From Actinomycetota bacterium (lineage in GTDB: Bacteria; Actinomycetota; Actinomycetes; Nanopelagicales; Nanopelagicaceae), in the NCBI GenBank assembly GCA_947372915.1, contig CANBVO010000007.1, positions 1-32,207 of the forward strand: a stretch of DNA of 32,207 nt, read 5' to 3'. Below the pieces are notes generated by a model that saw only the letters and a program-made list of their open reading frames with translations, did no database searches and was not told the origin of the DNA. Position 1 is the stretch's first letter, and each line of letters opens with the position of its first letter. A program made the translations under genes and the position numbers. Below, one piece after another: positions 5,971 to 8,513 of this stretch.

Positions 5971-7395
5971 ATGCAAATCAAAACCGACCTTTATATCGAT
6001 GGCGCATGGGTTAAGGGCGATGGTGCTCTTCCTGTCTATAACCCCAGCACAGGTGAAGTGATTGCAGAGTTTCAGACAGCTGGAGAAGCGCAGTGCGATG
6101 CAGCACTTACTGCTGCACATAACGCCTTCCCTTCATGGGCGAAGACCGCACCTCGTGTTCGATCCGAGATCTTGCGTAAAGCTTTCGAGATTATGACTGC
6201 CGAGGCGGACGAGATTGCCAAGTTAGTATCGATGGAGAACGGAAAAGTTCTTAGCGATGCAAAGGGTGAAGTTCTTTATGCCGCTGAATTCTTCCGTTGG
6301 TTTGCCGAAGAAGCGGTACGTACACCTGGAGATTTCCGCCATTCCCCTTCTGGTGACAAGCGCATTCTTGTTACGCACCAACCTATTGGCGTCTCATTAC
6401 TTATTACACCGTGGAATTTCCCGGCAGCTATGGCGACTCGCAAATTAGGACCTGCGCTCGCAGCCGGTTGCACCGTCATTCTTAAGGCAGCATCCGAAAC
6501 ACCTCTTACGGCAATCTATATCGTTGATATTTTGCATCGCGCCGGAGTTCCTAAGGGCGTAGTCAACTTCATCATGCCATCAAAGACTGGTGCAATGATT
6601 TCTATGATCATGCACGATCCGCGTCTTCGTAATATTTCATTTACCGGTTCGACTGAAGTGGGTCGCACACTCATCAAAGAGTCGGCTGATCTTGTACTGC
6701 GCACATCCATGGAACTCGGTGGTAATGCACCATTCGTCGTTCTTGATGACGCAGATATCGACGAAGCAGTGAAAGGTGCGATGATTGCCAAGATGCGCAA
6801 CGGTGGCGCCGCATGTACTGCGGCCAATCGCTTTATCGTTGCTAAGAAGATTGCAGAAGAGTTCACCACCAAACTAGCCGCGGCAATGTCAGCTCTCAAG
6901 GTCGCAGATGGCTTAACCGAAGGTGCTCAACTAGGAGCAAGTGTCTCTATTAAAGAGCGCAACAAGATTGCCGAGCTCGTTGACGCATCAGTTGCAGCCG
7001 GCGGAATATTGCACGCTGGTGGATCTGTTCCGGCAGGTGAAGGAGCTTTCTATCCTGCAACAGTTATCACTGTTGATAAGAAGAATCCGATTCTTGCTAA
7101 TGAAGTGTTTGGGCCCGTCGCTCCTATCGTCACTTTTGATACTGATGAAGAAGCAATTGCACTCGCCAATGACACCGAATACGGCCTGATTAGCTATATC
7201 TATTCATCCGATTTAAAACGCGCACTGCGCTCCGCCGAAGCTCTGGAATCAGGAATGGTCGCCGTCAATCGTGGCGTTATCTCTGATCCTGCTGCACCAT
7301 TTGGTGGCGTCAAGCAATCCGGCCTCGGCCGCGAAGGTGGCTTCGCTGGAATCCATGAGTTCTTGGAGACTAAGTACATCGGCGTGGAGATTTAA
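5971..7395 (+). CDS. gabD: Succinate-semialdehyde dehydrogenase-like aldehyde dehydrogenase
   Basis: TPWNFPAAMATRKLGPALAAGCT, ELGGNAPFVV, GGAACTAANRF catalytic Cys region, FGGVKQSGLGREGG. A TATGCT -10-like box lies just upstream of the ATG (possibly leaderless). Confidence 0.88.
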   Translation: MQIKTDLYIDGAWVKGDGALPVYNPSTGEVIAEFQTAGEAQCDAALTAAHNAFPSWAKTAPRVRSEILRKAFEIMTAEADEIAKLVSMENGKVLSDAKGEVLYAAEFFRWFAEEAVRTPGDFRHSPSGDKRILVTHQPIGVSLLITPWNFPAAMATRKLGPALAAGCTVILKAASETPLTAIYIVDILHRAGVPKGVVNFIMPSKTGAMISMIMHDPRLRNISFTGSTEVGRTLIKESADLVLRTSMELGGNAPFVVLDDADIDEAVKGAMIAKMRNGGAACTAANRFIVAKKIAEEFTTKLAAAMSALKVADGLTEGAQLGASVSIKERNKIAELVDASVAAGGILHAGGSVPAGEGAFYPATVITVDKKNPILANEVFGPVAPIVTFDTDEEAIALANDTEYGLISYIYSSDLKRALRSAEALESGMVAVNRGVISDPAAPFGGVKQSGLGREGGFAGIHEFLETKYIGVEI

Positions 7396-7413
7396 ATTAA
7401 TGAGCAAATGATG

Positions 7414-7512
7414 GCGGAGGATGTCCGAAGTCGTGACATCCGCATCAGGCACTGGTTCCAGCTGAGCCACTGAATAAGAAAATGAGTGATTCAGCCGGAG
7501 CGAACGAAGTGA
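7414..7512 (-). repeat. 99-bp diverged copy of the tRNA-Ser 3'-flank repeat unit
   Basis: gcggaggatgtccga...ttccagctgagccac...aatgagtgattcagccggagcg...ga; matches the units at 8242 and 8335; lies directly 3' of tRNA-Ser(CGA). Confidence 0.9.
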
Positions 7513-7513
7513 G

Positions 7514-7596
7514 CGGAGGATGAGGGATTTGAACCCTCGAGACTTTCGTCTACGCGTGTTCGAGACGCGCGCACTCGGCCGCTATGCGAATCCTCC
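7514..7596 (-). tRNA. tRNA-Ser (anticodon CGA)
   Basis: GGAGGAT..ATCCTCC acceptor stem, T-arm GAGGGTTCAAATCCCTC, anticodon stem CGCGT-CTCGAAC-ACGCG, long variable arm; no encoded CCA (followed by CTC). Confidence 0.95.
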
Positions 7597-7611
7597 GAGA
7601 GAATATTAGCG

Positions 7612-7998
7612 CTAGTTCTTTTTAGTGGTTTTTCGTATTTCTAGACCAGCGGCGATACCAGGAACATCTAAATCCCCAGTTGCAACTGCGAGTACCAATT
7701 TTTCTGCAGAATCCACATCATTAAAGATGTCGTAGTTATTGAGTAAGCAAAAAGTTCTGGTTGCAGCCCACGCTAACCGCTTATTGCCATCAATCAGCGG
7801 ATGATTTCTTGCTAGCGAATGCATCAAGGATGCCGCTTTTAACTCGAAGCCTTCATAAGCATCATTGCCGTATACCGATGTTTGAGGTCTTGCAGCCGCA
7901 GCCTCAAGCAAACCGATATCCCTGACCCGAAAATCATGGATGAGGGCGGCGCCAATTTCTAAAAGGTCGTGAATGTCGAGGAAGTCGATGGCTGCCAT
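7612..7998 (-). CDS. Fic/Doc-family toxin (short Doc-like)
   Basis: Fic motif HPLIDGNKRLAW, 128 aa, overlaps the stop of an RHH-type antitoxin. Confidence 0.88.
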   Translation of the reverse strand: MAAIDFLDIHDLLEIGAALIHDFRVRDIGLLEAAAARPQTSVYGNDAYEGFELKAASLMHSLARNHPLIDGNKRLAWAATRTFCLLNNYDIFNDVDSAEKLVLAVATGDLDVPGIAAGLEIRKTTKKN

Positions 7999-8195
7999 TA
8001 CTTAGCCAAGCGATCCAGTAATTCCTTATCCTCAACTGCGATTCGGGAGATTGCGTCTTTCAATCGAAGTTGACGCTTAGAGATATATTCATCGATGGCG
8101 GTTAGGGCAATTTCATGCATCGATGCACCTTGCGCCTCAGCAACTTTTTTGAGCCCAGCGCTTTGCTTTTCGGAGAGCCGTAATGTCATAGCCAT
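7998..8195 (-). CDS. Ribbon-helix-helix antitoxin of Fic/Doc module
   Basis: MAMTLRLSEKQSAGLKKVAEAQGASMHEIALTAIDEYI: RHH-like; start trimmed to ATG at 8195 because the longer ORF start runs through a palindromic operator. Confidence 0.82.
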   Translation of the reverse strand: MAMTLRLSEKQSAGLKKVAEAQGASMHEIALTAIDEYISKRQLRLKDAISRIAVEDKELLDRLAK

Positions 8196-8202
8196 GGCGA
8201 AA

Positions 8203-8221
8203 TGATACCACGGTGGTATCA
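8203..8221. promoter_or_regulatory. Perfect 19-bp palindrome, putative TA autoregulatory operator
   Basis: TGATACCAC-G-GTGGTATCA immediately upstream of the antitoxin ATG; minus strand contains TATCAT as -10-like box. Confidence 0.75.
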
Positions 8222-8241
8222 AATTCCAGTGGCGGAGTTTG

Positions 8242-8427
8242 GCGGAGGATGTCCTAGCTTGTGACTTCTACATGGGGCAGGGGTTCCGGCTGAGCCACCT
8301 AGAATGTAAATGAGTGATTCAGCCGGAGCGATGAGCGGAGGATGTCCGAGCTTGTGACTTCTGCATGGGGCAGAGGTTCCAGCTAAGCCACCCAGAATGT
8401 AAATGAGTGATTCAGCCGGAGCGATGA
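8242..8427 (-). repeat. Two tandem 93-bp units (8242-8334, 8335-8427) downstream of tRNA-Ser(GGA)
   Basis: gcggaggatg starts at 8242, 8335 and 8428 (exact 93-bp spacing); the two units differ at 6 of 93 positions by eye. Confidence 0.95.
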
Positions 8428-8428
8428 G

Positions 8429-8513
8429 CGGAGGATGAGGGATTTGAACCCTCGATAGGTTTCCCTATACACGCTTTCCAAGCGTGCGCACTCGGCCGCT
8501 ATGCGAATCCTCC
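8429..8513 (-). tRNA. tRNA-Ser (anticodon GGA)
   Basis: GGAGGAT..ATCCTCC acceptor, anticodon stem CACGC-TTGGAAA-GCGTG, long variable arm TATAGGGAAACCTAT, T-arm GAGGGTTCAAATCCCTC. Confidence 0.95.

Follow-up and report, generated by a model that had tools for sequence, protein, structure and literature searches.

At the tyrT locus of Escherichia coli (rtT RNA), 178-bp tandem repeats start in the tRNA gene, and each of them closes with a duplicate of the tRNA 3' terminus; the last unit is partial. Slippage and gene conversion are thought to shape these repeats. Additive flexible islands at tRNA genes have been described in streamlined aquatic bacteria, namely Methylophilaceae (PMC10872708) and Actinomarinales (PMC7771536). 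In the Methylophilaceae cassettes, the direct repeat corresponds to the last 20 bp of tRNA-Lys (PMC10872708).

The DNA studied here, referred to as the window, is a stretch of 32,207 nt representing contig G000:C7 of the 1.31-Mb draft genome (118 contigs) of a freshwater actinobacterium. It harbors two minus-strand tRNA-Ser genes, with anticodons CGA (about 7513-7596) and GGA (about 8428-8513), and a short array of repeat units is located at the 3' end of each gene.

Structure of the two arrays

In both tRNA-Ser(CGA) and tRNA-Ser(GGA), the discriminator G was found to be directly followed by CTC, and encoded CCA was absent; on the minus strand, the end of tRNA-Ser(CGA) reads CCTCATCCTCCG(7514)-CTC(7513-7511). 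The CGA array consists of one 99-nt unit, and the GGA array consists of two 93-nt units that are 94% identical to each other (Table 1). Each unit begins with CTC right after the discriminator G and finishes with GGACATCCTCCG, the last nine bases of which are a copy of the tRNA 3' end, CATCCTCCG. CCA stands after the final unit of each array. The distal end of the CGA locus reads, on the minus strand, GACTTCGGA-CATCCTCCG(7423-7415)-CCA(7414-7412). On the same strand of the GGA locus, CATCCTCCG of the tRNA (8437-8429) and CATCCTCCG at the end of unit 1 (8344-8336) are both followed by CTC, and CATCCTCCG at the end of unit 2 (8251-8243) is followed by CCA (8242-8240).

Table 1. Positions of the tRNA-Ser genes, repeat units and neighboring genes in the window
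Feature	Position	Strand	Basis or remark
Aldehyde dehydrogenase, 3' end just past the CGA array	5971..7395	+	Pfam PF00171; empty-site flank marker (G013)
Displaced CCA, distal end of the CGA array	7412..7414	-	Sequence; empty-site ortholog G013
CGA unit, 99 nt, CTC to terminal CATCCTCCG	7415..7513	-	Sequence
Distal core copy CATCCTCCG, CGA unit	7415..7423	-	Sequence
Box B GGAACCAGTGCC, CGA unit	7448..7459	-	Left-end pattern and family alignment
Box A CGGCTGAATCAC, CGA unit	7486..7497	-	Sequence and family alignment
tRNA-Ser(CGA), target gene	7514..7596	-	Discriminator G at 7514; ARAGORN, Rfam tRNA 49.4 bits, sequence
Core CATCCTCCG within tRNA-Ser(CGA)	7514..7522	-	Sequence
Fic/Doc-family toxin-like ORF, partner of the 7998..8195 ORF	7612..7998	-	Pfam PF02661, 54.3 bits
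Antitoxin-like small ORF, directly past the GGA array	7998..8195	-	Empty-site flank marker (G030)
Displaced CCA, distal end of the GGA array	8240..8242	-	Sequence; empty-site ortholog G030
GGA unit 2, 93 nt	8243..8335	-	Box A 8314-8325, box B 8276-8287, core 8243-8251
GGA unit 1, 93 nt	8336..8428	-	Box A 8407-8418, box B 8369-8380, core 8336-8344
tRNA-Ser(GGA), target gene	8429..8513	-	Without encoded CCA; ARAGORN, Rfam

The first-pass annotation of this DNA, which had described both tRNA-Ser genes as lacking CCA and followed by CTC, with a copy of the tRNA end and CCA at the far end of both arrays (about 7413 and 8241), was confirmed at both loci. Its statement that CCA occurs only at the distal ends holds within the window but not as a rule for the whole family of units, in which CCA-to-CCA and CTC-to-CTC units exist. 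Likewise, the proposed cargo of about 84 bp fits the GGA units (84 nt beyond the 9-nt core) but not the CGA unit (90 nt beyond the core). The absence of an integrase from the element was borne out, as the 93-99-nt units have no coding capacity and are gene-free.

The 9-mer common to every unit end is far beyond chance. The two distal CCAs alone would be expected by chance in approximately 1 of 4,096 cases; comparison with the empty-site orthologs described below makes chance irrelevant for them. The units are tandemly arranged and each closed by a copy of the tRNA 3' end, a property shared with the E. coli tyrT/rtT repeats, and at tRNA-Ser(GGA) two of them are stacked, with the tRNA-end repeat closing each, as cassettes are at a single tRNA. 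Precise placement at the tRNA 3' end was combined with a direct repeat at the distal border, as in a tRNA-targeted integrative element. Because the two GGA units are 94% identical, this pair was probably formed by one insertion and a local tandem duplication.

The body of the window tRNA-Ser(CGA) is that of tRNA-Ser(GGA), with an identical acceptor end and T-arm, and Ser(CGA) genes of relatives are of the GGTGG type. Judging from the sequence, the window tRNA-Ser(CGA) looks like an anticodon-switched duplicate of a GGA-type body.

Empty sites and direction of change

Orthologs lacking the repeat were found for both loci, and these empty sites read ATCCTCCG-CCA directly after the T-arm, as the first-pass annotation had predicted. 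For the GGA locus, the empty site was found in G030, which belongs to another genus of the same family; here, the antitoxin/Fic operon known from the window directly follows tRNA-Ser(GGA)-CCA without any unit, and the operon DNA is alignable with that of the window from the operator onward. For the CGA locus, it was found in G013, a member of the window's genus, in which tRNA-Ser(CGA)-CCA is followed, again without a unit, by the same aldehyde dehydrogenase gene, a neighbor common to the window, G013 and many relatives. In the window, the CCA and the neighbor known from the empty sites begin past the last unit at both loci. Therefore, the units occupy precisely the junction of the tRNA 3' end with its former flank, and the proposal that insertion at the tRNA 3' terminus displaced the CCA gained support from both orthologs. 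The end of the dehydrogenase gene lies within a few bases of the tRNA in several genomes of g39 (a Planktophila-like genus), and the dehydrogenase flank comes after the distal repeat of a unit in G188 and G251. The toxin/antitoxin-like ORFs (7612-8195) lie between both tRNAs in the window, which is not so in G013, and after tRNA-Ser(GGA) in G030.

A single presence/absence pair gives no direction of change; precise deletion between 9-bp direct repeats would also yield empty sites. Among the tRNA-Ser(TGA) loci examined, CCA is encoded in 20/20 at the genus level and in the majority of the others at the family level. The majority of unoccupied GGA loci encode it as well, several loci from outside the family among them. 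Comparison of these sequences indicates that CCA is likely the ancestral state at these tRNA-Ser genes. In g39, the unit was present at 13 of the 21 CTC loci versus 1 of the 17 CCA loci by hand count (Fisher p = 0.0005, a value that serves as a guide only because the loci are not phylogenetically independent). Since CCA appears to be ancestral and CTC is associated with the unit in g39, the evidence favors acquisition of the unit, by which CCA was displaced.

Distribution of the units among relatives

A total of 296 genomes of the bacterial family were surveyed with a left-end pattern, an independent right-end pattern, a model search and partial units. The left-end pattern gave 25 matches in 20/296 genomes and zero matches in reversed controls; all of these matches, except for one at a contig start, were located just past tRNA-Ser(GGA/CGA) or past a repeat of its 3' terminus. 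The right-end pattern matched the same places and, in addition, one chance location. When the model search and partial units were included, units were found at tRNA-Ser 3' ends in about 33/296 genomes from four genera, with most relatives lacking them. The size of the compact cassettes was about 64-112 nt.

The bases following the proximal and distal cores varied. A change from CTC to CCA was found twice in the window and in G005, G029, G033 and G122, whereas CCA was present at both ends in G010, G016, G019, G303 and the first unit of G130. CTC was present at both ends of 14 units, nearly all of which belonged to g39. Distal CCA is thus a frequent outcome but not diagnostic of the family, and the distal end in g39 is usually CTC.

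A unit with the same left end was detected at tRNA-Ser(GCT) in G007 (L362:899-1110), and its terminal core, TCTCCGCTC, matches that tRNA and not CATCCTCCG. In G229 (L153/L258), three tRNA-Ser genes (GGA, CGA and CGA) lie about 1.3 kb apart and are accompanied by chimeric units. The left-end model also gave matches of 20-33 bits away from tRNA genes, in which the tRNA-specific core was missing (L077 in contig C38 of the window's own genome, about 1719; L092 in contig C84 of the same genome, about 1335; and L358-L361, L363, L366-L372 and L374-L377). They lie for the most part in coding stretches rich in Glu, Val, Pro and Ala, at times in tandem, and represent either low-complexity coding coincidence or a dispersed DNA element. 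An intergenic left-end-like match in G154/G155 gave no clean empty site in comparison with G153, and none of the matches from other lineages in a wider collection of genome contigs was near a tRNA.

Gene-bearing cassettes and recombinases at the same tRNA end

The left end of the compact units was also found to close gene-bearing cassettes of 1.24 kb in G211 and 0.85 kb in G246. The distal flank of the G246 cassette recurs on a second contig of that genome, where it follows a compact unit; this pair of contigs may reflect strain variation or assembly. The window units, by contrast with the cassettes of an additive flexible genomic island, carry no genes.

A second, integrase-bearing class of elements (type 2) is hosted by the same tRNA-Ser end. 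In G188, a unit is preceded by an inserted 2.2-kb gene-bearing segment that is closed by a different left end with a 17-bp core. The left end seen in G188 recurs on a 3.7-kb segment of G163, which is followed by the distal CCA, and several segments are stacked in G281; stacked cassettes are also present in G188 and G211. In two genomes, a tyrosine integrase lies behind the type-2 right end: at tRNA-Ser(GGA) of G211, with a Pfam score of 68.5 bits, and at Ser(CGA) of G232, where the ORF is partial and at a contig end. The type-2 integrase was present in 2/206 genomes searched.

No recombinase tied to the compact (type-1) units was found. The window's genome encodes two tyrosine recombinases only, both on contigs other than that of the window, and their size and number suggest that they are XerC/D-like. 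Thus, the window units do not encode an integrase of their own, as a tRNA-targeted integrative element would. The extra integrases of the window's genus were considered as a source and rejected, as their neighboring tRNAs, where one is seen, are those for Arg, Leu and Val and not Ser. Origin from a sampled phage was also rejected, the viral collections containing no copy of the unit ends: in IMG/VR, the left-end pattern matched only unrelated sequence with no tRNA nearby, and both other end patterns gave zero matches in the viral collections. The Ser-targeting integrase had no viral relative in IMG/VR.

Origin of the arrays

We consider it rather likely that the arrays are gene-free cassettes of an additive flexible genomic island growing at the 3' end of tRNA-Ser(GGA/CGA). 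According to this explanation, a cassette would comprise a right end (CTC...CGGCTGAATCAC), a left end (GGAACCnnTGCC, 17-20 nt, CGGA) and the 9-bp copy of the tRNA terminus, CATCCTCCG. Recombination of this copy with the tRNA would place the cassette between the discriminator base and the encoded CCA. The tRNA would be kept intact and its encoded CCA lost, so that CCA would have to be supplied by the CCA-adding enzyme, and the original CCA and flank would be pushed to the far side of the cassette. The insertions would have been carried out by a site-specific recombinase acting in trans. Gene-free units might arise as ends-only cassettes or via loss of cargo between repeated ends, and the GGA pair would be a product of local duplication. 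The exact position of the units, the empty sites, the shifted CCA and flank, the conserved ends of the family, the gene-bearing cassettes sharing the left end and the integrase-bearing elements at the same tRNA end were all observed; because no recombinase was found for these units, insertion by an integrase can only be inferred. A core of 9 bp, which is short for tyrosine integrases, argues against this explanation. A further-reaching possibility, to which we give only tentative credence, is that the units are gene-free cassettes of about 64-112 bp that are mobile by means of their own ends, borrow a tRNA-Ser-targeting recombinase, insert between discriminator base and CCA and are able to switch to Ser(GCT). 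If so, they would be among the smallest tRNA-integrating elements described.

Local tandem-repeat evolution without any mobile cassette would suppose that a tRNA 3' end and its flank were duplicated once, long ago, and that slippage and gene conversion later added copies, removed copies and carried them from one tRNA-Ser locus to another. Tandem arrays do begin in the tRNA, and several finish in a partial unit (L104, L108, L113, L116 and L373); the window GGA units are 94% identical, and units at two loci of one genome share 89% identity in G255 and 94% in G168. Nevertheless, this scenario appears unlikely. The empty-site flanks show no relation to the units, and the local flank was therefore not the source of the spacer; the window CGA unit is as close to units from another genus (G168, 78%) as to its own GGA units (77-78%); and the same left end occurs on gene-bearing segments and, with a matching core, at tRNA-Ser(GCT). 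On the other hand, incomplete second units where arrays end, together with local copies that are identical (G255, G015 and G304), point to tandem duplication or slippage besides insertion. Considering the CTC/CTC units, the partial last units and the 94% identity of the GGA pair, both insertion and tandem duplication appear to act at these loci. The units could also be deletion scars, i.e., remnants of a full integrase-bearing element that lost its interior, with no movement of their own. This view agrees with the additive-island explanation as far as insertion is concerned and competes with it only on the origin of the gene-free units. Integrase-bearing elements do use the same tRNA, and the left end has cargo-bearing versions, but no intact element combining type-1 ends with an integrase was found, and the compact form, with its ends at a near-fixed distance, recurs in four genera. 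Since independent deletions are not expected to give the same 93-100-nt product repeatedly, this origin is possible but doubtful.

The aligned units share box A (CGGCTGAATCAC) and box B (GGAACCnnTGCC), and the distance between box B and the core is near-constant. A functional non-coding RNA or tRNA-processing signal, kept for its transcript like rtT RNA, could be imagined since the units are always directly downstream of the tRNA and are likely co-transcribed with it, and some fold better than shuffled sequences (z down to -2.8). However, no conserved or covarying RNA fold was detected across 20 aligned units, no unit had an Rfam match, RtT included (cmscan up to E = 1), and the units are absent from most relatives. 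The RNA-structure explanation was rejected on the first of these grounds, and a role of the transcript is highly improbable. Because the boxes are conserved at near-constant spacing and no fold is, the conservation appears to lie at the level of DNA sequence, as expected of recombination ends, and boxes A and B are putative protein sites.

Comparison with known systems

Displacement of CCA by a cassette explains why CCA can be missing from some tRNA genes of a genome and be encoded in the orthologs of these genes. The tRNA-end islands of abundant freshwater actinobacteria, the relatives studied here including Planktophila MAGs, comprise cassettes that are little more than ends. In cultivated strains, it thereby becomes possible to test what insertion minimally requires, where the recombinase comes from and what the loss of an encoded CCA costs.

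The arrays resemble the E. coli tyrT repeats in having tandem units that start from the tRNA, copies of the tRNA 3' end and a partial last unit. They differ from them in the tRNA, sequence and length, in the existence of empty sites, of several loci and genera and of gene-bearing versions, and in the lack of an RtT match. As in the tRNA-integrating islands outlined for Islander (PMC4383910) and in tycheposons, in the form in which these are summarized in PMC10872708, insertion at the 3' end left the tRNA intact and displaced its original end. In these accounts, however, both islands and tycheposons span kilobases and as a rule encode a tyrosine recombinase, whereas the present units have none. 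The closest similarity is to additive islands (PMC10872708, PMC7771536), in which cassettes are also stacked at a tRNA 3' end and each of them is marked by a repeat of the tRNA terminus. The published cassettes bear genes and have longer tRNA repeats (PMC10872708, PMC7771536), whereas the compact cassettes described here are gene-free, about 64-112 nt long, and have conserved ends of their own and a 9-bp core. The present arrays are best classed as a gene-free variant of the published additive tRNA islands and a very small version of genomic-island stacking.
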